Origin: Thalassotalea sp. PP2-459
GTDB taxonomy: Bacteria; Pseudomonadota; Gammaproteobacteria; Enterobacterales; Alteromonadaceae
NCBI RefSeq assembly: GCF_001913705.1
Contig: NZ_MKQD01000037.1
Location: forward strand, 62,001 to 126,000
Reading direction: 5' to 3'
Length of the DNA: 64,000 bases
This document shows, one piece after another, positions 45,314 through 60,597 of this stretch (its first letter is position 1; every line of letters begins with the position of its first letter). Below the pieces are notes generated by a model. The model saw only the letters and a program-made list of their open reading frames with translations. It did not search any database and was not told where the DNA came from. The position numbers were made by a program, and so were the translations under genes.

Positions 45314-46249
45314 TTAGGTAGAGCTAATAGCACGTTCTTCAAGTAAGCAGTAAAAGTCGAATGCGTTAGGTAAGCTTTCACCGTCAACCTGATACGAACC
45401 TAACATAAATTCGTAAGGCATATAGAGGTAGCCAGATAAACCAAAATTTCCCCCATAAGAGTTACGAATGAGCAAAGCTTGTTTGTCATCATCAAAGCCA
45501 ACGGCACAAACAGCATGGCCGCCAATACGTAATTCATCTTCACTTGGCATTGGCATAATGCCTGAAGATGGAATTTCGAAGAAACTACGGGGTTCAATAA
45601 AACCAAAAATTACCGGTGTTTGGTTACTCAGTGCGTGTTTAATTTCATCTATACCATGCTCAATACTTAAGCGGCAATATTTAACTTGTCTAAATGTTTT
45701 TGCTTGTTCAATCGCCTTTTTAGACGGTTTTTCGCTCATCAATTTTCGAATGATCGCTTGCTTTTCTGTCAGTACTAACTCAAGATTTTCGGTGATTTCT
45801 TCAAGAGATGCGGTTTTTATTAATTGATATAACGACTCAGGAACATGTGTTTTGGGGTAGGGCCATAAATCAGCACAACATACACCGAAAAGTTGCAATG
45901 CTTGGAAACCGTCACTGATCAATACCGGCATATTTTGTAATTCTTTGCCAGCTAATAAGCGCTCATGGTAGTAAATGTACATCGCAGAGGCTTTAGAAAC
46001 TTGGCTGCAATCATCAAAAAACTCAGTTTTTTGCCTATTTAACGTGATCTCCATGGCGGCTGATAATGCACACCCCGTACAAGCATTCAGTAAACCCTGA
46101 TCCATCACCGGTGAAATAATAAACTCGCGCAGATCAACGCGTGCTTGTTCACATGCTTGCCAATGGCTTGAATCGCAGTTTTGTTGATATAGAGAAGATG
46201 CAGTGCATTGATCATTTGGCACGACACTTCGGCAGTATAAATGTTGCAT
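45314..46249 (-). CDS. papain-like (C1 family) cysteine peptidase
   Basis: A 311-residue protein with a complete papain triad: Q51 and C57 in VMDQGLLNACTGCALSAAME, H245 in IGGHAVCAVGFDDD, and N263 in LIRNSYGGNFG. C60 is a second cysteine one turn after C57; which one is the nucleophile is uncertain, but spacing from Q51 favours C57. No signal peptide is evident, and the N-terminal 35 residues carry four more cysteines. AAGGAA precedes the start by five bases. It is a stand-alone gene, convergent with the sensor kinase; substrate unknown. Confidence 0.85.
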   Translation of the reverse strand: MQHLYCRSVVPNDQCTASSLYQQNCDSSHWQACEQARVDLREFIISPVMDQGLLNACTGCALSAAMEITLNRQKTEFFDDCSQVSKASAMYIYYHERLLAGKELQNMPVLISDGFQALQLFGVCCADLWPYPKTHVPESLYQLIKTASLEEITENLELVLTEKQAIIRKLMSEKPSKKAIEQAKTFRQVKYCRLSIEHGIDEIKHALSNQTPVIFGFIEPRSFFEIPSSGIMPMPSEDELRIGGHAVCAVGFDDDKQALLIRNSYGGNFGLSGYLYMPYEFMLGSYQVDGESLPNAFDFYCLLEERAISST

Positions 46250-46450: not shown

Positions 46451-47998
46451 TTGAAATCGTTTAACCTTAATTTGATATACGTACTTGCATTGTTTACGCA
46501 AGTGTTTGTCGTTCATGCGGCTGAATTTCCAACTAAGCATGAGCGGGAAGCCATTGTTGAAAGTTTATTGAATGGTATAGAAAGTGTTGATGGTGTAACA
46601 ATTGAATTACGCGATAGTACGCGCGTAGTTAAATGGGATAACTTCAAAAAAATAGCTACACGAAATGTGGTGTCGGCATCTGATTGGAGTAGCTTGTATA
46701 GTGCGATTAATAATATTCACGATGGCATTATCAATCGCCATTCTTATATTCAAGTTGAAGAAGGTATCAGAAAACATGTAAAAGCCATTGCTAAATGGCC
46801 ACGTTATAAACTTGGTTATACTTGGCCAAACATTACCTTTTTTGACTTAGATAATAAGCAAACGATTCTTTCATTAAATGGTACTTCGGTGATTGATCTC
46901 TTCGATGAGTTTTTTAACTTATATTGTAATGACGTGCATGATATTGGTTGCTTGAAGTTATTCTCTGTTGCAATAGGGCGCGGTTATCGCTTCAAAGACA
47001 ATGCTGAAAAACTAGATGTTACCTTTAAAGGTGGCAGTAAAAAACAAGTTTTAACACCTCAAAAATTAAAGAAAATTGCAAAAAAAGGTGAGCCAAAACA
47101 ATGCGAAAACTTATATACCAATTTACCTAAAAATCTTGTTTTTAAAGGTGATCAAAGTTGTTTATTTGAAATTGATAATCACTATTTATTGAAGATTAGA
47201 TATTTTGGTCGTTGGGGTACTGAGCAAAACGATATTTATTGTCAAAAAGTTACCACAGAAGGAATGTGTTCGGATATTTTGGCTATTAAAAATATACTAA
47301 GCCAGCAAACTGCTAAACCTTTGATTATAGACCTTCAAAATAATGGTGGTGGCTCTGAGAATACACCATGGATTGCTGCATTAACTACAAATGGATTCAT
47401 GGACAATGTGGTTTTATATAGAAGTTTAGCGCTTTTAAAAGATAAAGACATTCGAAAAGATTCATTTTATGACAATGAATATGCCGAAAATTGGTATCAA
47501 AAAATTAAAGTCAATATGAGTGAACAACACAAATACTTGCCGCCACGCGCAGATTTTTGCCGAGGCTCTAAGGAGTGCGCACTAGAAAATATTCCTTCAG
47601 CGAAGTTACCGATAAAGTATCGTGCTTTAACTTTAGTCATAAATGAAACATGTGTGAGTTCATGTGATGATTTTGTGTGGCGAACAAGGCGATATGCTCA
47701 AGCGAAAACTGTCGGACAACTGCCTGCAACGGATGGTGCTTACGCGAGAATTAAAGGGTATATCTATGTTGATAAGCAAGGCAATATTGGTCATACGCAC
47801 GTTGGTGAAAGCCAAGACGTACCTGCTGAGGCGGAAACACTTTTAGTGAGCTATCGTATGCCAATATCTAAAACTATTGATGTAGATGGCAATAACTTAG
47901 ATGGGGCTGATAATGTTTTGGATGTCGCAATTCCAATTACTAAGGAAAACTATACTAACATTGAAGATATCAACGTTAAGTTTGCGTTGGGCTTGTGA
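46451..47998 (+). CDS. S41 family (tail-specific protease-like) peptidase
   Basis: A 515-residue secreted protein starting at TTG with AAGGA upstream. Signal peptide ends near VFVVHAAEF. The C-terminal half is an S41 domain: KPLIIDLQNNGGGSENTPWI, then LTLVINETCVSSCDDF with candidate nucleophile serines, then TVGQLPATDGA. The N-terminal half has weaker similarity to peptidase-associated regions. Several cysteine pairs (CNDVHDIGC, CRGSKEC, CVSSC) suggest a disulfide-rich periplasmic enzyme. Divergent from the papain-like gene. Confidence 0.85.
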   Translation: MKSFNLNLIYVLALFTQVFVVHAAEFPTKHEREAIVESLLNGIESVDGVTIELRDSTRVVKWDNFKKIATRNVVSASDWSSLYSAINNIHDGIINRHSYIQVEEGIRKHVKAIAKWPRYKLGYTWPNITFFDLDNKQTILSLNGTSVIDLFDEFFNLYCNDVHDIGCLKLFSVAIGRGYRFKDNAEKLDVTFKGGSKKQVLTPQKLKKIAKKGEPKQCENLYTNLPKNLVFKGDQSCLFEIDNHYLLKIRYFGRWGTEQNDIYCQKVTTEGMCSDILAIKNILSQQTAKPLIIDLQNNGGGSENTPWIAALTTNGFMDNVVLYRSLALLKDKDIRKDSFYDNEYAENWYQKIKVNMSEQHKYLPPRADFCRGSKECALENIPSAKLPIKYRALTLVINETCVSSCDDFVWRTRRYAQAKTVGQLPATDGAYARIKGYIYVDKQGNIGHTHVGESQDVPAEAETLLVSYRMPISKTIDVDGNNLDGADNVLDVAIPITKENYTNIEDINVKFALGL

Positions 47999-50908: not shown

Positions 50909-51631
50909 CTAAAGCTTTGTTAATTCGGCAACTTTTGTTAATACTTGCGCTTTAAAAGACTTACCAATATTGATCTCTCGTTCATCGATTAGCGTTATTT
51001 TATTTCCTTCAATAAAACGAATATGTTCAAGGTTTACCATGGCCGATTTGTGCACTTGTAAAAAGGACGAGTCTTTAAGTTGCTCTACAAAGCTTGACAG
51101 TGTTCTTGGTGTTAAAACGCTTTGACCATCACGCCAAACCTTCACGTAATTTCCGTAAGCTTCAAAACAACTAACGTCTGCTAAGTTTATTTTAAGTTGC
51201 TTTTTATCTACTTTAACAAATATCTGCTTTATGGTTTTGGGTTTATCTGTGTGCGTTGCTTGTTGAACTAATTTATAGTGATTAAGTGATTTGTTGCAAG
51301 CCTGAAGAAAGCGTTCAAATGAAAAGGGCTTTAAAAGATAGTCACTTACATCTAATTCATAGCTTTCTAATGCATGCTCTTGATAGGCACTAGTGATAAC
51401 AACCTGTGGTTTTTCTTTCAAAACTTTAAGCAAGTCTAGGCCCGAAAGCATTGGCATATTAATATCCAAAAATAGCAGGTCTACCGATTGCTTGGAAAGG
51501 AAGTCAAGCGCTTGGGTGGCAGAATAACACTGTCCAACAACGTTGATAAACGGAACGTTTTCGCAAAAACTTAACAATATATCGTGTGCAAGTGGTTCAT
51601 CGTCAATGATTAAGGCGTTAAGCTTGTTCAT
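50909..51631 (-). CDS. LytTR-family response regulator
   Basis: A 240-residue regulator. Receiver with D10-D11 and phospho-acceptor D56 (LLFLDINMPMLSGLDLL), K in YLLKPFS, then a LytTR DNA-binding domain (IKQIFVKVDKKQLKINLADV, SFLQVHKSAMVNLEHI). Its start overlaps the kinase end by 14 bases. LytTR proteins bind direct-repeat sites; the likely target is the divergent ABC/peptidase operon, which starts about 230 bases upstream of the kinase gene. Confidence 0.94.
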   Translation of the reverse strand: MNKLNALIIDDEPLAHDILLSFCENVPFINVVGQCYSATQALDFLSKQSVDLLFLDINMPMLSGLDLLKVLKEKPQVVITSAYQEHALESYELDVSDYLLKPFSFERFLQACNKSLNHYKLVQQATHTDKPKTIKQIFVKVDKKQLKINLADVSCFEAYGNYVKVWRDGQSVLTPRTLSSFVEQLKDSSFLQVHKSAMVNLEHIRFIEGNKITLIDEREINIGKSFKAQVLTKVAELTKL

Positions 51632-53138
51632 TATTTTCTAACTCTATTATCAATGTGACTAAAAATTCATGCGGTTGAACCGAAATAGTCAACGTGTGTT
51701 GGTTGGTGTAATCAAGCGCCAACCGTCGTTGCAGGTTTTCAAGTCCAAGACCTCCATCCGCTTGTCCTTTTGTTTGATTACTATTAACTCGTTCATCAAT
51801 GGAATTATGGCATATTAGGCTAAGTTTATTGTGCTCGAGTGATAAATCGACAGATAACCAAGCTGGCTTATCTGTTGCATCAATACCATGTTTAAAGGCG
51901 TTTTCTATGAGTACGATTAAGAGTAATGGAGCTATTTTAAATTGGGTATTCTCTGCTAGTTTTTGGTCAATATTAATGGTTAATGTCGCTTTATGGCTGA
52001 CGCGAATTTGTTGTAGTGCAATATAGTCAGTTAAGTAAGCAATTTCGTCTTTTAAACTTACACGATGATTACCACCTTTATACACGACAAATCGCAACAG
52101 GTTGGATAACTGTAGTATACATTGCGGTGCTTGCGCTTTTTTAGTTAACACCATTGAATATAAGTTGTTGAGGGTATTGAACAAGAAGTGAGGGTTAATT
52201 TGTTGCTGTAACCACTTTAATTCTGCTTCGGTATTTTGCTGTTTGAGTAATGATACTTCTGCAACCTGTTGTTGCCACTTAAAGGCTAAAATTAGAGGTA
52301 AACTTATCATCATGATAATAAAAGCAATACGTAAGTTCCAAACATCAAAGGGATCATCATTACCGCTAGGTAATAACGTGAATTCAACGCTATTTATCGG
52401 TAAAAACAACGTAAGCTGGCTTAATAGTGGCGCTGCTATTAACGTGAATGTGCAGGCAGTCCATAAATAATGAAATACCCCAAAACGAGCCATAACGTTG
52501 TTAATTAATACATGATGATTTATCCAATAAATAAAATAGCCACACATATAAAATGCAAAAAACTGAATAAAGTAAAAAAATAATTCGTCAAAACGTAACA
52601 GATTTCGTTTAATATCAATAAGAATGTGAATAGGTTGGTTTTCCATCGGGTTGTCTATCGAATTAAACACTAATGACCAAAACAAACTAAAGCACACCAC
52701 GATTGCGAGTAAAGTATTGTCCATTGTGACTTTATCTTTAAATCTCGATAGATTTAGTGGTTTTACTTTTCGCCTTAAAAAAATAATGATCTCAATGGCA
52801 ACTAAGCTAATAAACAAGGCTAACGTGTTATCAAAGAACTCTTCATAGCTGTTGCTGTTTTCTCTTATTATTAAATGCCCTAGTGGCAACATTATAAAAC
52901 CGATGGCCCACCAAGCGAGTGCTGCTGTTTTTTCAGACCGTAAGCTTTGATATTTGCACCAAAGTACAGGTGAAATGAGAATCGCCAATACGCATACTCT
53001 TTGAGCAAAGGTTATCCAATTAAGCTCGTTAACGGTTAAAAAGGCATAAGATACGATAAAAGCAAGGTAGAGACTAAACGGCATAAATGGCGAGAAAAAA
53101 TAAGAGAAAAGTTTTGTAGATAAAGCGTGACGTAACAT
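51618..53138 (-). CDS. LytS-type sensor histidine kinase
   Basis: A 506-residue membrane kinase of the His_kinase (pfam06580) type. About seven or eight hydrophobic helices occupy residues 15-275, then the phospho-acceptor H317 in QQQINPHFLFNTLNNLYS and a HATPase with VLIENAFKHGI and GLGLENLQRRL. It overlaps its regulator by 14 bases and is transcribed away from the ABC genes. No extracytoplasmic domain is visible, so it may sense membrane state or a transporter, as Bce-type systems do (inference). Confidence 0.93.
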   Translation of the reverse strand: MLRHALSTKLFSYFFSPFMPFSLYLAFIVSYAFLTVNELNWITFAQRVCVLAILISPVLWCKYQSLRSEKTAALAWWAIGFIMLPLGHLIIRENSNSYEEFFDNTLALFISLVAIEIIIFLRRKVKPLNLSRFKDKVTMDNTLLAIVVCFSLFWSLVFNSIDNPMENQPIHILIDIKRNLLRFDELFFYFIQFFAFYMCGYFIYWINHHVLINNVMARFGVFHYLWTACTFTLIAAPLLSQLTLFLPINSVEFTLLPSGNDDPFDVWNLRIAFIIMMISLPLILAFKWQQQVAEVSLLKQQNTEAELKWLQQQINPHFLFNTLNNLYSMVLTKKAQAPQCILQLSNLLRFVVYKGGNHRVSLKDEIAYLTDYIALQQIRVSHKATLTINIDQKLAENTQFKIAPLLLIVLIENAFKHGIDATDKPAWLSVDLSLEHNKLSLICHNSIDERVNSNQTKGQADGGLGLENLQRRLALDYTNQHTLTISVQPHEFLVTLIIELENNEQA

Positions 53139-53372
53139 AGCTGCCCGATGGAATTACAAGTTAAAGCCAAAGAATATATTGCGATGTTCTGTGTTAAATG
53201 TCAGTAAGTAAATGACAAAAAGCATTATTTTCATGATCAACGTACGAGAGGAGCTCATTTGCGGTTGATTTTGACATTCATCATTGAAGAGTCGACCTTG
53301 GTCATTGTTTACTCGCAATGCTGTGAAAAGTTATTAAAAATAGCGATATGTAACACTAAGAGTGGTGGATAT

Positions 53373-54275
53373 ATGCTAACTATAACGAACTTATGCAAAA
53401 CCTACGCAGAGAAAAAGAAACAAAAGGCACCTGCATTGGATGATGTGAACTTATCAATTGGTTCTGGCATGTTTGGACTTTTAGGGCCGAATGGCGCTGG
53501 TAAGTCGAGTTTAATGAGGACTATTGCAACCTTGCAAAAGCCTGATACCGGCACGATAGAATTTGCGGGTGAAAATATCATTAAACACCCTGAGTTTATG
53601 CGTAAACAGTTGGGTTATTTGCCTCAAGATTACGGTGTTTATCCAGGGGTATCTGCTTTTGAGTTACTTGATTACTTAGCAAAACTAAAGGGTATTACTG
53701 ATCGTAAGCAACGCAATGCGCAAATAGATAAATTGCTCGCACAAGTGAATCTTACGCAGCATAGAAATAACGCAGTTAGTCGATTTTCAGGGGGCATGAA
53801 GCAACGTTTTGGTATAGCACAGGCATTGTTGGGTGAGCCTAAGATGCTAATTGTTGATGAACCAACAGCAGGACTCGACCCCGAAGAACGTAATCGCTTT
53901 CATAACTTATTAGTTGAAATAAGCCGTGATAAAGTGGTGCTGTTATCAACACACATTGTTGAAGATGTCAGTCACCTTTGCCCTAACATGGCAATTCTTG
54001 CCGCGGGAAAAATTGTTAAAGAAGGCTCTCCAGCGCAGTTGATTAAACAAGTTCAAGGCAAAATTTGGCAGATTAAAACAAGTAAATCGAACCTTGAAGA
54101 CGTTGTTCCTCAAGCTAACGTTATCAGCCAACGTTTATTTGCTGGAGAGGCCACCGTTCATGTTTATAGTGAGAGTCAACCTAGTCCCGATTTTCATCGA
54201 GTAACACCTGATTTAGAAGATGCTTATTTTGCAGCTTTGCATTGCCATGCGTTTGAATCGCAATTAAATAAGTAA
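53373..54275 (+). CDS. ABC transporter ATP-binding protein
   Basis: From the ATG at 53373, preceded by GGTGG, the 301-residue protein is a standard ABC ATPase: Walker A GPNGAGKS (38-45), Q-loop YLPQDYG, signature RFSGGMKQR, Walker B MLIVDEPTAGLD and H-loop STHIVED. An in-frame start at 53259 would add 38 residues with no ABC character. A C-terminal ~75-residue extension follows. The permease-peptidase gene starts 10 bases downstream, so the two form one transporter. Confidence 0.95.
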   Translation: MLTITNLCKTYAEKKKQKAPALDDVNLSIGSGMFGLLGPNGAGKSSLMRTIATLQKPDTGTIEFAGENIIKHPEFMRKQLGYLPQDYGVYPGVSAFELLDYLAKLKGITDRKQRNAQIDKLLAQVNLTQHRNNAVSRFSGGMKQRFGIAQALLGEPKMLIVDEPTAGLDPEERNRFHNLLVEISRDKVVLLSTHIVEDVSHLCPNMAILAAGKIVKEGSPAQLIKQVQGKIWQIKTSKSNLEDVVPQANVISQRLFAGEATVHVYSESQPSPDFHRVTPDLEDAYFAALHCHAFESQLNK

Positions 54276-54285
54276 GGAATTTATT

Positions 54286-57200
54286 ATGAGAAGCTTATTA
54301 ATTGCCGAGCTTAAACTACAAAGTCGCCATTGGATTTGGTTGCTTGCAATGGTGTTAACGTTTGCGTTTGGCGCTTTTGTGATAAATAAACAAACGCCAG
54401 ACATGGACATTGACGTCAGCGGCGCTTTTTTTCTGATCAAAACCTTTGCTATCCAACTTTTGTTATTGCCAGTACTGGTAGCGATATTCTCTGCACAAGC
54501 CACTATCAGAGATTTTGATAGTGATATGGCGAGCATTGTCTATGCGAGTAGTACCAAGTTAACACAGGTACTATTTGCAAGGTTTTTTGCCCTATTTATC
54601 TTATGTTGGTGTGTGTACTTAAGTTTTGCTTTAGGTATTCTCGGTGGCTTAACGACGCAATCGCTCGACTCTTTTAGTTTGCCTATAGCGAGTCTCAGTT
54701 GGGCGCTATTCGTGTTAGCGTTACCTAACGTTTTATTAGTCTGTGCTATATTTTTTGCTATTGGTCTATATGGTAAACGTAGTATTTATTTGTATTTGAA
54801 TGCTTGTTTGCTTTTCTTTGCTTACCAATTCTTTTTAACCATTAATGGTTCACCGTTGATGGCAAGTAGGGTTGCGGTTTCTGCTGATTTATCATCATTA
54901 TATGCATGGCTAGATCCATTTGCCTTAAGTACGTATTTTGAGCAAGTTAGACAATGGCAACCTTCAGATAAAAATACACTATTACCCACCTTTGACGTAA
55001 CGCTACTGACAAATCGTATTGCAGTTGTTCTTGCAGCGCTGCTGGTTACTGGTTATGCCATTATCCATCATGTGCAGCATTTTAAAGTAGATACGATTCA
55101 AGATGAACGTGTGCTTTTACCACATTGGATAAAACGCGTTAAATTGGGTTTAACGCGTACATTGGCACTTACTTTCATCGCTCGACTATCCGATAAGCTA
55201 CCAGTATATAGTGTGCTTACTATAGCACGCAAAGAATGGCAGCTTAGCTTTAAAACAAAGACTTTCTTTGCCATGTGTTGCGCGCTAATTTTCTTAATCA
55301 GTAGTGAAGTTTATTTTGGGTACATACATCTTGAAAACCTGGGTACATCAGCAATTGCGTCTACGTTGATCACTGTAAACCGATACATTGCTGACATTTT
55401 ACCGCGCTTTGGTGGCTTGTTTATGCTTTTTCTCGCGGCTGAACTGTGTTGGCGTGATCAGCAAAGTAAAGTTAAGCCACTGATCGATAGTACGCGTGTT
55501 AGTAACGTTGCTTTGTTCTTTGGGCGTTTGTTAGCCCTGTGCTTTGTACCTTTATTTTTTATCACGTTGAGTATTATTGTTTCGATTGTCATGCAGTCGG
55601 TAAATGGCGGTGATATTGATCTCAATATGTATGTATCCATGTACTTTTTCTTTGGTCTTCCAATGATTTGGCTAGCAACGCTGTGTGTTGGTGTACATGC
55701 ATTATTACCCAATAAATACTTAGCACTAGGCCTTATCTTCGCTTTATTTGTTAGCCTTGAAACTAGCGTGCTGCAATCTTTTGGGTTAGAACACCCTTTA
55801 TGGACACTCGGACAATTGCCATTGTTAAGTTACTCTGAGTTTGTTGGCTTTGGTGCTGAAGTAGATGCATTCGTTGGCTACTTAAGCTTTAGGTACAGCT
55901 TACTTATCGTTCTATCGCTTATTGCGTTCAAATTTTTCCGTCGAGGAGAAGAGTTATCATCAGCCTTTACATCGCCTGTGTTATGGCATCGCCGCGAGAA
56001 AGTTATTCTCATCTGTGGCGCAGTAGCGTTGGTGATAACGCTTGGTAATGTCGTTTATCAGACTTGGTACATAGGTCATTACCAATCAAGTAGTGATCGG
56101 CATGTGTGGAAAGCTAGTTATGAAAAAAAATATGCTTACTTGAAAGACCAACCATCACTTGCCGTTGAAAAAATAACAACAATCGTTGAATTAATGCCTA
56201 ATGAAAGACGCTTGGCTGTCGATGCGACATACCAGTTAATCAATCGTAGCGACAATGCTATTTCACAGTTGGTGTTTTCGACACCTTTGCCTTTTAATTA
56301 TCGTCATGTGAACGTGGAAAATGCTAAACAGGTGTCTTTTGATCACGTGCATCAAACGCATATTTATGCTTTTGAACAACCAATTCAACCTGGTGAAACG
56401 GCTGCGATAAGTGTTGTCGCCGATTATCAACAAAACGGTTACTTAGGTGTGCCGGGTGATAATGTTTTAACCAGCAATTATAGCTATATTAGGTTTTTAC
56501 GTTATCTACCGTTTTTTGGCTATGTAAAACACTATCAATTAACTAATAACGGCTTACGAGAAAAGTTCGCTTTACCTAAGCTTACGCATAACACACTTGA
56601 GCAAGATCTTGAAAAATATCAAGGTGATATGTCTGAACTTTATGATTGGGCGATATTAGATACTACCATTGTAACGAATGAAGACCACATCGCATTTGCA
56701 CCAGGTGAACTGGTAAAACAATGGCAAGAGGGTCATAGAAAAGCGTTTCAATATCGAACACGCGGAAAAGTGCGAAACATCGGGCATATTGTTTCGCATA
56801 ACTTGCCGGTTAAAACGGCTGAAATAGCTCACACTTCTGTTGACGTTTACTATCCCGAAAACAAAGAAGCATATGCAACGCTTCATTTAAGTGCAATTAC
56901 AGATGCCTTGCGGTATGGTAACGAACATTTTGGTGCTATTAAAGCCAATAACTTACGATTGGTGCCAGTCGCAGGCTTTTTCCCTGCTACCGGCTATGCT
57001 TTGCCAAACTCTATTTTTATTGGTGAAGGCGTTGGGTTCCACGTTGATTTGAGCAATGAAGATGGCTTTGACCATTTATACCGTCGTACGGTGCATGAAG
57101 TCGCACATCAGTGGTGGGGACATGGATTAAATGGCGCTGCAACGGAGGGTGAAGCGGTATTAGTAGAAACGCTGGCGAAGTATACTGAAATGGTATTGCT

Positions 57201-57819
57201 AACACGAAAATATGGCGATGATTATGTAAAACAGCTTATTAAATATGAGCAACAGCGCTACTTTTCTGGGCGCTCTCGCACTAATATTAATGAGCTGCCA
57301 CTTTACCGAGGCGATGAAAATTACCTTATCTATTCAAAAGGTGCAGCCGCGATGTATGCGCTGAAACAGCAATTAGGGGAAGCGGCTATCAACAAAGCGT
57401 TAAGAAAGTTGGTAACGTTACATTCATACCCGAATAAGCCAGCAACAACGTTAGATTTTATTGCCTATTTAATGGCAGACAAAACGGCCAAACAGCAACA
57501 GTTGGTTCAAAGCTGGTTTAAAGAAGTCGTTATTCATGACGTTGAAATTTCACGTGCAGAGCTAAGTAAGACTGAACAAGGATATGTGATCAATGTCTGT
57601 TTGCAAGATAATAAAACAGATCTTACAACGGTGAAATTAAGTGCATTTACCGATGACCAAAAGTTAATCGCTAACACTAACATTGTTGCAAATGCTAAGC
57701 AGGGTACTAACACTTGTGACCTGTGGCAATTGGAAACAAAACCTAGCCATATTGAGGTTGATTCTGCACTATTATTGCTTGATAGCAATAGAGAAAATAA
57801 TCAATTCTACTTTCCTTAA
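54286..57819 (+). CDS. ABC permease fused to M1-family metallopeptidase
   Basis: A 1177-residue protein with about twelve membrane helices in two groups in residues 1-600, joined to a periplasmic M1 aminopeptidase-like domain (about 620-1170). The zinc site is complete: H937EVAH941 (HEVAHQWWGH) and E961 in LVETLAKYTEM, one residue farther than the usual 18-residue spacing. A GYALPNSIFIGEG segment stands where M1 enzymes have GAMEN. AAGGA lies eight bases before the ATG. It should pair with the ATPase and be controlled by the divergent LytS/LytTR system. Substrate unknown: peptide export, import after trimming, or peptide detoxification are all open. Confidence 0.9.
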   Translation: MRSLLIAELKLQSRHWIWLLAMVLTFAFGAFVINKQTPDMDIDVSGAFFLIKTFAIQLLLLPVLVAIFSAQATIRDFDSDMASIVYASSTKLTQVLFARFFALFILCWCVYLSFALGILGGLTTQSLDSFSLPIASLSWALFVLALPNVLLVCAIFFAIGLYGKRSIYLYLNACLLFFAYQFFLTINGSPLMASRVAVSADLSSLYAWLDPFALSTYFEQVRQWQPSDKNTLLPTFDVTLLTNRIAVVLAALLVTGYAIIHHVQHFKVDTIQDERVLLPHWIKRVKLGLTRTLALTFIARLSDKLPVYSVLTIARKEWQLSFKTKTFFAMCCALIFLISSEVYFGYIHLENLGTSAIASTLITVNRYIADILPRFGGLFMLFLAAELCWRDQQSKVKPLIDSTRVSNVALFFGRLLALCFVPLFFITLSIIVSIVMQSVNGGDIDLNMYVSMYFFFGLPMIWLATLCVGVHALLPNKYLALGLIFALFVSLETSVLQSFGLEHPLWTLGQLPLLSYSEFVGFGAEVDAFVGYLSFRYSLLIVLSLIAFKFFRRGEELSSAFTSPVLWHRREKVILICGAVALVITLGNVVYQTWYIGHYQSSSDRHVWKASYEKKYAYLKDQPSLAVEKITTIVELMPNERRLAVDATYQLINRSDNAISQLVFSTPLPFNYRHVNVENAKQVSFDHVHQTHIYAFEQPIQPGETAAISVVADYQQNGYLGVPGDNVLTSNYSYIRFLRYLPFFGYVKHYQLTNNGLREKFALPKLTHNTLEQDLEKYQGDMSELYDWAILDTTIVTNEDHIAFAPGELVKQWQEGHRKAFQYRTRGKVRNIGHIVSHNLPVKTAEIAHTSVDVYYPENKEAYATLHLSAITDALRYGNEHFGAIKANNLRLVPVAGFFPATGYALPNSIFIGEGVGFHVDLSNEDGFDHLYRRTVHEVAHQWWGHGLNGAATEGEAVLVETLAKYTEMVLLTRKYGDDYVKQLIKYEQQRYFSGRSRTNINELPLYRGDENYLIYSKGAAAMYALKQQLGEAAINKALRKLVTLHSYPNKPATTLDFIAYLMADKTAKQQQLVQSWFKEVVIHDVEISRAELSKTEQGYVINVCLQDNKTDLTTVKLSAFTDDQKLIANTNIVANAKQGTNTCDLWQLETKPSHIEVDSALLLLDSNRENNQFYFP

Positions 57820-57896: not shown

Positions 57897-58514
57897 TTAC
57901 TGGCTAACTTTTTCTTGGGTCAGTAATGACCAAGTCATTAAGCCATATTTAGCTACCGAGAGTAGTGCTTCTTTTGAAGCGCCATCGCGGGCTTGAATAG
58001 ACATACCCTGCTGAAGGGTGATGTAATACGTTGCAATGGCATGACAGTCAATTTCTGAATTGAGCGTGCCGTTTTCAATATCACGTTTTAACAAAGTAAT
58101 AAGGTTTTCTTTACTTTCTACGCGACATTCTTGCAACGTATGATGCACTGATAAATTCGTGTCATCCTGGTTCATCGCTCCTATTATAATCAGACAACCT
58201 TTTGGTCTATTTTCGTGAGTAAATTCTTCTGCACTCAATGTTAGTAGGGTTTTTATGGCTGCTTTTGCGGACTTTTCTCGCATGGTTTCGAGCCATATTT
58301 TACTACCTTCTGTTGCACGATACAGCGTGACAACTTCATTGAATAGTGCTTCCTTTGAACCAAACGTTGAGTAAATACTAGGGGTGTTAATCCCCATAGA
58401 ACTTACGAGATCTGCCATTGAAGTATTGTCGTAACCTTGTTGCCAAAAAGTCATCATGGCATTTCTAAGAGTCTCTGTTCTATCAAAATTACGTGGTCTT
58501 CCGCGTTTATTCAT
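57897..58514 (-). CDS. TetR/AcrR family transcriptional regulator
   Basis: A 205-residue repressor with an N-terminal helix-turn-helix (RGRPRNFDRTETLRNAMMTF, then MADLVSSMGINTPSIYSTFG) and a helical ligand domain. It is divergent from the SDR-MFS pair; the 119-base intergenic region contains a 9-bp inverted repeat suited to a dimeric operator, so it probably represses both itself and that pair. Confidence 0.93.
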   Translation of the reverse strand: MNKRGRPRNFDRTETLRNAMMTFWQQGYDNTSMADLVSSMGINTPSIYSTFGSKEALFNEVVTLYRATEGSKIWLETMREKSAKAAIKTLLTLSAEEFTHENRPKGCLIIIGAMNQDDTNLSVHHTLQECRVESKENLITLLKRDIENGTLNSEIDCHAIATYYITLQQGMSIQARDGASKEALLSVAKYGLMTWSLLTQEKVSQ

Positions 58515-58555
58515 TATTGTGCTCCACGAAGCGGTAAATTTATTTTATAATGATC

Positions 58556-58597
58556 GTTACAAAATAAGGAAACAATGCTAATGTATGTTTTTGTAAC
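58556..58597. promoter_or_regulatory. candidate TetR operator, spaced inverted repeat
   Basis: GTTACAAAA (58556-58564) and TTTTGTAAC (58589-58597) are exact reverse complements separated by 24 bases; the arm centres are 33 bases apart, about three helical turns. It lies between the divergent tetR and SDR genes. Confidence 0.6.
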
Positions 58598-58633
58598 TTT
58601 CGATACATATATTAACAGATAAAAGGAAAGAGT

Positions 58634-59374
58634 ATGCAACGATTAAGAAATAAAGTAGCACTTATCACTGGTGGCAGTAGAGGAATGGGGGCTGCAATTG
58701 CAGAACGCCTTGCTCAAGAAGGTGCAAACGTAGTGATTACTTATGTTAACAATGCGGAAAAAGCAAACGGTGTAGTTGCGAAGGTGAGAGATATAGGAAG
58801 TAAAGCTATAGCGATTAAAGCTGATAATGCTGATCCTCATGCAATCACTTCTGCAGTTGATTCAACAATAGCGGAGTTTGGTCAACTGGATATTTTAGTG
58901 AATAACGCCGGTATTTTTAGTCCTAAACCGATAGAAGCGCTTACATTAGAAGAGATTGATAAAACGCTAAACATCAACGTTCGCGCCGTGGTTATTGCTT
59001 CACAAGCAGCCGCTGCACATATGAAATCTGGTGGACGAATAATCTCTATTGGCAGTAACCTCGCAGAACGCGCTGTAATGCCTGGTTTGAGCTTGTACAG
59101 TCTAAGTAAAGCAGCGCTAATTGGTTTTACTAAAGGGTTAGCGCGTGATTTAGGTCCTCAGGGAATTACGGTGAATATTGTTCATCCAGGCTCTACAAAT
59201 ACCGATATGAACCCAGAAGACGGTGAATATAGCGATATGCAGCGTAGCGCAATGTGTATACCACGATATGCTGAACCTGACGATATTGCTGGCGTTGTTG
59301 CTTTTCTTGCAAGTGAAGAAGGAAAGTGTATGACCGCTTCTGGACTAACAATTGACGGCGGCACTAACGCGTAA
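58634..59374 (+). CDS. short-chain dehydrogenase/reductase
   Basis: A 246-residue classical SDR, 3-oxoacyl-ACP reductase-like. NAD(P) motif TGGSRGMG (12-19), NNAG, and the catalytic S141 with Y155 and K159 (YSLSK) are in place; the end (TASGLTIDGGTNA) is typical. The substrate is unknown. It is followed after 20 bases by an MFS gene and preceded by a divergent TetR regulator, which fits a small detoxification or efflux module. Confidence 0.93.
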   Translation: MQRLRNKVALITGGSRGMGAAIAERLAQEGANVVITYVNNAEKANGVVAKVRDIGSKAIAIKADNADPHAITSAVDSTIAEFGQLDILVNNAGIFSPKPIEALTLEEIDKTLNINVRAVVIASQAAAAHMKSGGRIISIGSNLAERAVMPGLSLYSLSKAALIGFTKGLARDLGPQGITVNIVHPGSTNTDMNPEDGEYSDMQRSAMCIPRYAEPDDIAGVVAFLASEEGKCMTASGLTIDGGTNA

Positions 59375-59394
59375 TAGCGGCAGAGGGTATTAAG

Positions 59395-60597
59395 GTGAGG
59401 AAGCAACAAAATGTTAAAGAGTCTGATAATCTTGCACTTTTGAATATTCTCGCCTTTTTATCTTTTGTCGTTGTTACAACAGAATTTTCCATGGTAGGTT
59501 TTTTGCCAGAAATTTCGCTGCAACTTGGTATTTCTGTAGCAGATGCAGGTTGGTTTGTCACATGGTTTGCATTAGGCGCTGCATTGGTTGGGCCTTATTT
59601 AACGTTAATGGTGAAAGTCTTTGATACAAAACATTATTTTATGTTTACTACCAGCGCTTTTATCTTGGCAAATGTTGTTATTATTCTGCTGCCTCGTTAT
59701 GAGGTGATTGTTGTTGCTCGGTTTATTCAAGGGGGTTTTTTACCTGTTATTTTAAGTATTATTGCAATGACAGCAGTAGATACCTCTGGTGATAATCGTC
59801 AACATTGGGCTATATCTCGTGTCAACTTAGGGTTAGTCTTTGCGACGGTGTTAGGTATTCCACTGAGTGCTTTTATCGCTGTGGAATATCATTGGCAGCT
59901 TACGTTTTGGTTGCTATCAATACTCGGCCTTTTTGCCTTAGTGGGTATTGTGCTCTATGTCCCTGCAGTGCCACCGAAAAAAAATATCGCTAATGAAAAT
60001 AATAGGCCTTTGTTATTACAGCCATTATTTCTCTTACATTTATTGTTATCAATGTTGTTATTCACAGCAATGTTCACTGTTTATACCTATATCTCTTCTT
60101 TTATGTTAACCGTAACTACGTTTAGCAACACAGCAATAGGGTGGTTGTTGATAGTCTTTGGTGGTGCTGGCGTGTTAGGTAATTGGCTGGTGGGACGATT
60201 CACTTTTAAACAAAACTTGCAACCCACTATTTATCTCACGTTACTTTTCTGTACAGTTATTCTGCTACTGACACTTATAGGCAGTTACTGGAAGATATTG
60301 GCCATAATTATCCTAGTTTTTTGGGGGGCTGTACATATGGCCGCATTTGTGATCACGCAGGTCAGAATAATACAGATCGCAAAAGAACATAAAGCATTTG
60401 CATTATCGCTAAACATGGCCATTTGTAACCTTGGGATCAGTATTGGCGCTATGGCTGGAGGATGGGTTTCCAGTCATTATGCTGTAGATAACATAGGTTT
60501 TGTCGCCGCAGGCTTTGCAACGTTTACTGTTCTGACGGCTATCTTTATGCAAAAGACAATGAAAAAGTATCAACCTTATTCAAGTATCATTAAATAA
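59395..60597 (+). CDS. MFS transporter (drug efflux type)
   Basis: A 400-residue protein with twelve predicted membrane helices. GTG start 20 bases after the SDR stop. The first half has LALLNILAFLSFVVVTTEFS and GWFVTWFALGAALVGPYLTL, typical of the DHA1 drug:H+ antiporters, and RFIQGGFLPVIL. Likely cotranscribed with the SDR and controlled by the TetR protein. Substrate not predictable. Confidence 0.92.
   Translation: MRKQQNVKESDNLALLNILAFLSFVVVTTEFSMVGFLPEISLQLGISVADAGWFVTWFALGAALVGPYLTLMVKVFDTKHYFMFTTSAFILANVVIILLPRYEVIVVARFIQGGFLPVILSIIAMTAVDTSGDNRQHWAISRVNLGLVFATVLGIPLSAFIAVEYHWQLTFWLLSILGLFALVGIVLYVPAVPPKKNIANENNRPLLLQPLFLLHLLLSMLLFTAMFTVYTYISSFMLTVTTFSNTAIGWLLIVFGGAGVLGNWLVGRFTFKQNLQPTIYLTLLFCTVILLLTLIGSYWKILAIIILVFWGAVHMAAFVITQVRIIQIAKEHKAFALSLNMAICNLGISIGAMAGGWVSSHYAVDNIGFVAAGFATFTVLTAIFMQKTMKKYQPYSSIIK

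Follow-up and report, generated by a model that had tools for sequence, protein, structure and literature searches.

The window analysed here, a stretch of 64,000 nucleotides from Thalassotalea sp. PP2-459, carries an operon coding for an ABC transporter ATPase and a permease-M1 fusion protein, and on the opposite strand the genes of a sensor histidine kinase and a LytTR regulator. The locus is composed of the following features (positions of the window; E values from Pfam where given).

50909–51631, minus strand: response regulator of 240 amino acids with a receiver domain (PF00072, E 2e-20) and a LytTR DNA-binding domain (PF04397, E 1.2e-15)
51618–53138, minus strand: sensor histidine kinase of 506 amino acids, His box at H317 (PF06580, E 1.1e-25)
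53199–53204, minus strand: CTGACA, 7 bases away from operator 1, putative -35 element for transcription of the kinase gene
53212–53240, plus strand: predicted operator 1, ATGACAAA-N13-ATGATCAA, direct repeats at 21 bp, conserved in the same-genus loci
53277–53305, minus strand: predicted operator 2, the repeat of operator 1 on the opposite strand and facing it
53376–54275, plus strand: ABC transporter ATPase of 299 amino acids (PF00005, E 6.9e-32), start assigned by homology
54286–57819, plus strand: permease-M1 fusion of 1177 amino acids with transmembrane helices, an M1-like part and a zinc site

For the ATPase, the most likely start is 53376, where the predicted protein begins with MLTITNLCKTY as in its paralogues, rather than at the mechanically called TTG at 53259. 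Its stop at 54275 and the ATG of the fusion at 54286 leave a gap of 10 bases, the distance given in a first-pass annotation of this DNA, and the divergent gap between the kinase and ATPase genes measures 237 bases. Four ATPase-fusion pairs, not one, are present in the genome (4.08 Mb), and three of them, the pair in the window and those at loci L042 and L043, face a divergent kinase/regulator pair.

Beyond the fusion, at 57897–60597, a gene for a TetR-type regulator (the one protein of this group that was domain-scanned) is divergent to two ORFs, one resembling short-chain dehydrogenases and the other MFS proteins; a TetR gene adjoins the fusion in both same-genus loci as well. About 5 kb from the regulator gene, at 45314–46249 and 46451–47998, are genes for a papain-family (C1) and an S41-like peptidase.

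Fold, topology and zinc site of the fusion

In the structural model of the fusion (64 sequences; mean pLDDT 88.1, pTM 0.86) the permease is built of two halves, each with six membrane helices and an elbow helix, in agreement with the roughly twelve permease helices initially counted from the sequence. A thirteenth transmembrane helix, modelled at residues 569–596, runs into the M1-like part, which is predicted to form three domains between about residue 610 and residue 1177. In the window fusion Pfam recognised Peptidase_M1 (PF01433) at 934–1077, scoring 31.8 bits where the cut-off is 27.7, and matched none of its permease families. The families ABC2_membrane_2 to _5 matched up to six of 16 fusion relatives, and FtsX was absent from the Pfam matches of the 16 fusions scanned. 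With the helix boundaries of the model and the N terminus placed inside, the K+R content of the window fusion is 0.177 for inner loops as opposed to 0.031 for outer ones, and the difference has the same sign in 64 of 64 relatives. This bias on the model helices places the M1 part in the periplasm. A cytoplasmic M1 domain, considered in the first-pass annotation, was checked and is disfavoured by the model topology and the K+R bias alike; the predicted location of the domain is the periplasmic side.

Among solved structures, the best match of residues 610–1177 was tricorn factor F3 (1z1w; Z 31.2, rmsd 4.2 over 463 residues), and comparison with the two-domain enzyme of Deinococcus radiodurans (6a8z) gave a Z of 28.6 and an rmsd of 3.1 over 389 residues. 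The modelled part thus shares the fold of peptidase family M1. Because the structure matches end before the C-terminal part of the larger M1 enzymes, the lid domain seems to be missing from the fusion as modelled. Unlike 6a8z and 1z1w, the fusion is joined to a permease, appears to have no C-terminal lid part and does not show the GxMEN motif discussed below.

The zinc site was found as originally numbered (H937, H941 and E961). In the alignment of 64 sequences, its residues, the catalytic E938 and Y1016 each show a conservation of 90% or more. The spacing HExxH-x19-E is one residue longer than that of classic M1 enzymes, which have x18. Of 45 fusions accompanied by a kinase, 43 keep HE..H, E961 and Y1016 intact, as do 73 of the 74 without one. 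The exopeptidase motif GxMEN was not seen at its aligned place in the 20 fusions inspected, where a TGYALP-type or other sequence stands; two other M1 proteins of the same genome have GAMEN at that position. On this motif comparison an ordinary aminopeptidase is doubtful, and the term M1 peptidase used in the earlier reading is better not taken in that sense. Should the domain instead be a non-catalytic docking or gating part, which we regard as improbable, the departure from GxMEN would be understandable, as would locus L073, which retains the module despite a destroyed zinc site; the preservation of zinc ligands, catalytic Glu and Tyr in the two groups of fusions speaks against it. In the L073 fusion (L073:8228-11284) the zinc site is replaced, with PSKDH aligned to HEHEY, and the ATPase, kinase and regulator genes are retained, making this locus a natural test of the need for catalysis.

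Distribution and co-inheritance of the four genes

Fused permease-M1 proteins form a class already present in databases. A literature search, with most subscription papers beyond its reach, found no functional description of the cluster, which agrees with the initial statement that its function had not been described. We compared 121 loci, comprising the window, 33 loci in relatives, 80 named loci and seven from a class-wide draw. Fragments and weak or M1-only matches were dropped from the relatives (G018, G023, G030 and G046; minor hits of G007, G016 and G031). According to ORF picking, 117 of the 121 loci have an ATPase gene that adjoins the fusion and shares its strand. It hid genes in the remaining four, which seemed to lack an adjacent ATPase and were corrected by tblastn; by tblastn the ATPase adjoins the fusion in all 115 loci checked, and the same search brought to light the co-directional kinase/regulator pair at L258.

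A kinase and regulator pair stands at 46 of the 121 loci, a set biased towards the kinase by its named part, for which the query was taken from kinase-bearing loci. These loci come from Gammaproteobacteria (among the named ones Pleionea, Shewanella, Rheinheimera, Pseudoalteromonas, Microbulbifer, Bowmanella and Alteromonas) and Bacteroidota (Pedobacter, Dyadobacter, Larkinella and Algoriphagus), and in the ORF survey the pair is divergent to the ATPase-fusion operon in 46 of 46. In the family sample it occurs at 11 of 34 loci, with two others at contig ends. A sample of Pedobacter's class (40 regions, about every second match, some near contig ends replaced) contains it at four loci, divergent at L267 and L276 and co-directional at L249 and L258, and none of the seven loci of the class-wide draw has a kinase. 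Conservation of the kinase genes with the fusion, on which the earlier reading had relied, is thus a property of one part of the family and does not extend to the whole. The fusion itself was detected in 75 of 295 genomes of Pedobacter's class and in 10 of 369 genomes of the window's class, with at most two candidates scored per genome. ATPase and fusion are widespread, mostly without a kinase, and it follows that the transporter does not need the kinase.

Some neighbourhoods deviate from the common arrangement. At L249:142-6375 and L258:3473-9943 kinase and regulator genes lie upstream of ATPase and fusion in the same direction, perhaps in one operon. At L065:6613-6882 a match to a LytTR-like regulator faces the ATPase, and a kinase was not found there. 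In 39 loci (L132:4584-5669 and 38 more), none of them with a kinase, the gene divergent to the ATPase resembles that of an M42 aminopeptidase; the M42 assignment comes from Pfam on the query sequence, and the 39 loci are matches to that query.

Where the pair occurs, its history follows that of the fusion. A FastTree tree was calculated for 120 fusions, leaving out L166 (G331:C7:556788-560066), whose gene is broken by a single in-frame TGA. On this tree the kinase label changes six times, and four times when contig-edge rows are set aside (116 rows). Six fusion clades, A to F, bear the pair, and each is set apart by a single branch of the kinase tree, with a support of 79 for clade A and 95–100 for the other five. 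One locus is present twice (L135 is identical to L068), and L135 was left out of the counts on 45 loci. Mantel correlations with the fusion were 0.90 for the kinase, 0.89 for the regulator and 0.91 for the ATPase, with 0 of 999 permutations as high, and nearest relatives agree in 27 to 30 of 45 cases (fusion and kinase in 27). In each of the three units of the window genome, fusion and kinase fall in the matching clade. Kinase, regulator, ATPase and fusion are thus co-inherited where the pair occurs and behave as one unit. Matching trees of this kind are expected of neighbouring genes inherited together, whether or not their proteins are in contact.

A predicted 21-bp direct-repeat operator at kinase-bearing loci

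A search for LytTR direct repeats in the gap between the divergent genes (53139–53372) had been proposed earlier, and such repeats are present at 53212–53240 and 53277–53305. Two islands of the intergenic gap are conserved in the same-genus loci. Across 37 loci the word pairs ATGAC-N16-ATGAT and TGTCA-N9-TGACA recur in 10 loci each, compared with at most five in five shuffled sets. We described the half-site as HTGAYVA and profiled pairs at spacings from 12 to 33 with shuffles as control. The pattern was derived from the same loci and widened once, after its first form (R at position 6; 24 of 45 loci with and 0 of 67 without a kinase) had missed the window; with A, C or G allowed at position 6, a pair at exactly 21 bp is found in 30 of 45 kinase-bearing loci and in one of 67 that lack a kinase, a control group from which four loci at contig edges and four that seemed to have no ATPase were left out. 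Each of the 21 other spacings occurs in at most two loci, and the shuffles gave a mean of 0.05. By clade, the 21-bp pair is present in 22 of 27 loci of A, four of five of B, two of four of D, two of five of F and in neither of the two loci each of C and E. A chance origin of the operator is ruled out by the spacing profile and by its scarcity in loci without a kinase.

At eight loci there is one site on each strand, with starts 66 bp apart in five including the window and 67 bp apart in one. In the whole 4.08-Mb genome the strict form matches twice, at the two sites of the window, and the reversed-pattern control gave no match. An earlier, looser pattern had yielded 61 matches against two of the reversed control, none of them at the window. 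The 21-bp direct repeats are the predicted operator of the kinase-bearing loci and near-unique in the genome. Their geometry fits that of published LytTR sites (PMC4847170, PMC6193735), described in PMC4847170 as two repeats of 9–11 nt with spacers of 11–13 nt. The regulator would be expected to bind this operator and to activate from it, which would make the four-gene unit autoregulated.

In 11 of 25 kinase-ward sequences a TGACA starts at a distance of 8 bases from the operator, towards the kinase gene, and is perhaps the -35 element of the kinase promoter. A consensus promoter scan returned one site against a shuffle mean of 1.5 and did not find the CTGACA element. A wider regulon was not shown in 15 other genomes, where the looser operator form gave 45 matches against 24 of the reversed pattern. 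When coordinates and letters were read by eye, 15 of the 45 fell at loci with a kinase, in 13 genomes, and the other 30 in other places, so that away from kinase-fusion loci the looser form is near background.

These data bear on the possibility that transporter and M1 domain form a general envelope or peptide-turnover system, to which kinase and regulator are an incidental, lineage-dependent accessory that tunes expression only. The absence of the pair from most fusion loci and the 39 kinase-less loci with a divergent M42 aminopeptidase-like gene by the ATPase would fit such a system. An incidental accessory would, however, hardly be expected to keep its divergent order and a 21-bp operator across two phyla, or to require as few as four changes over 116 rows in the parsimony count, and we consider this explanation unlikely.

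The sensor kinase and a proposed logic of the module

The facing gene pair had been described as LytS/LytTR. A divergent PF06580 kinase and a LytTR regulator are indeed present, but the 5TMR_LYT input domain, by which the LytS type is defined (PMC10653868), matches none of 37 kinases at E 0.01. The window kinase, for which His_kinase was the sole Pfam match, is therefore not LytS-type in the strict sense. Its model (mean pLDDT 87.7, pTM 0.59) places eight long helices ahead of the catalytic part and shows no external domain. The outer loops assigned reach 23 residues at most, confirming that a large external domain is missing. K+R is higher in inner than in outer loops in 36 of 37 kinases, and H317 is invariant among the 37.

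By hydropathy, most kinases of clades A, B and D have between six and eight membrane segments (a kinase of 416 amino acids has four) and those of clades E and F about five to seven. The clade C kinases, L069 and L042 of the window's own genome, have a two-helix hairpin only. That the input part of the kinase shrinks to a hairpin and the transporter stays makes the transporter the likelier sensor. The earlier suggestion that the kinase reads the state of the transporter gains support from L042, a paralogue of the unit whose kinase has two helices, and we infer that sensing via the transporter is favoured.

Structure searches with the kinase did not inform on the fold of its membrane part, since the matches listed by Foldseek (first 50) and VIA-align reflect the catalytic part. 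When 59 relatives were searched from the kinase side, eight kinases matched into the membrane region, and seven of these adjoin a fusion. The eighth, at L279:577-2133, faces genes for a WD40-repeat protein and a Rieske oxygenase, without a fusion.

The main rival is a kinase that acts as an ordinary ligand receptor like BtsS, with a small molecule bound by its membrane helices and the transporter merely as regulated target. BtsS, which lacks an external domain, binds pyruvate between its membrane helices (PMC10653868); the eight predicted transmembrane helices of the window kinase offer room for a ligand pocket, and the L279 kinase, of the same membrane type, stands apart from any fusion. The receptor core is not constant, however: it is reduced to two helices in clade C and varies in the other clades as described, with the fusion kept throughout, and the failure of all 37 kinases to match 5TMR_LYT also argues against a BtsS-like receptor. 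We consider this explanation unlikely, though the least so of the alternatives considered.

Our preferred reading, to which we assign a probability of roughly 0.55, is a self-contained sensing-and-response module consisting of a transporter with a periplasmic M1 domain, a kinase reading it and a regulator acting on both promoters. ATPase and permease half would together make up an inner-membrane transporter of the ABC-2 type, on whose periplasmic face the fused M1-type zinc domain would bind, and probably cut, a peptide-like transporter substrate. A peptide is suggested because of the M1 part and because 39 kinase-less loci have a gene resembling an M42 aminopeptidase opposite the ATPase. The kinase, having no external domain, would most likely read the working state of the transporter, not free ligand, and phosphorylate the LytTR regulator, which would then bind the two direct-repeat operators that face each other between the divergent genes and adjust the two promoters jointly. 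Such a closed loop, in which transporter output would be matched to load, is the simplest reading of the locus. Several observations count against it: operator matches are absent from all four loci of clades C and E and present in only two of five in clade F, the L279 kinase lies away from a fusion, and L073 keeps its kinase with a destroyed zinc site.

Known systems resemble the unit in part. In Bce modules, transporter, kinase and a regulator that raises transporter expression constitute a feedback loop (PMC10314905). The window and 45 further loci likewise combine genes for an ABC transporter, a kinase and a regulator. As in BceAB-BceRS of Bacillus subtilis, the kinase has no sizeable external domain, and the clade C kinases share the two-helix layout of Bce-type kinases; a kinase physically bound to the transporter and driven by it, a further mark of Bce-type modules, would have to be supposed here. 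Bce-type modules are a Firmicute system with an FtsX-type permease, their defining fold, and an OmpR-type regulator. Here, in contrast, a probable ABC-2-type permease is fused to M1 and combined with a PF06580 kinase and a LytTR regulator in Gram-negative phyla, so that the resemblance is best regarded as a likeness of working, not as membership. NatKR-NatAB of Bacillus subtilis is a comparable case of a two-component system controlling a transporter, there of the ABC-2 type and not known to have an M1 domain.

BtsS/BtsR and YpdA/YpdB of E. coli have a LytTR regulator, a multi-helix kinase and a direct-repeat operator with repeats two turns apart (PMC4847170, PMC10653868), but carry the 5TMR_LYT input domain that the kinases here do not have. 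BtsS/BtsR controls btsT, the pyruvate transporter gene. The Streptococcus LytTR regulatory systems combine a LytTR regulator with conserved ABC neighbours and are autoregulated via repeats with mostly 12 bp between them (PMC6193735); they use a membrane inhibitor protein, in whose place a kinase stands here.

A more far-reaching version can be put forward only tentatively, and we hold it to be somewhat less probable than its opposite: that the loci represent a Gram-negative transporter-coupled module, assembled independently of Bce, in which a PF06580 kinase, reduced in one paralogue to no more than two helices, reads the turnover of an ABC-2 transporter with its own periplasmic M1 metallopeptidase. 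If this were true, the cell would sense a peptide via the same machine that cleaves or transports it. Kinases that read a transporter are known chiefly from the Bce modules of Gram-positive bacteria, and a module of unrelated parts kept across two Gram-negative phyla would mean that this logic arose more than once. The defined and near-unique operator could be turned into a reporter with which to look for the substrate that induces the system, and so for the function of a common class of orphan proteins.
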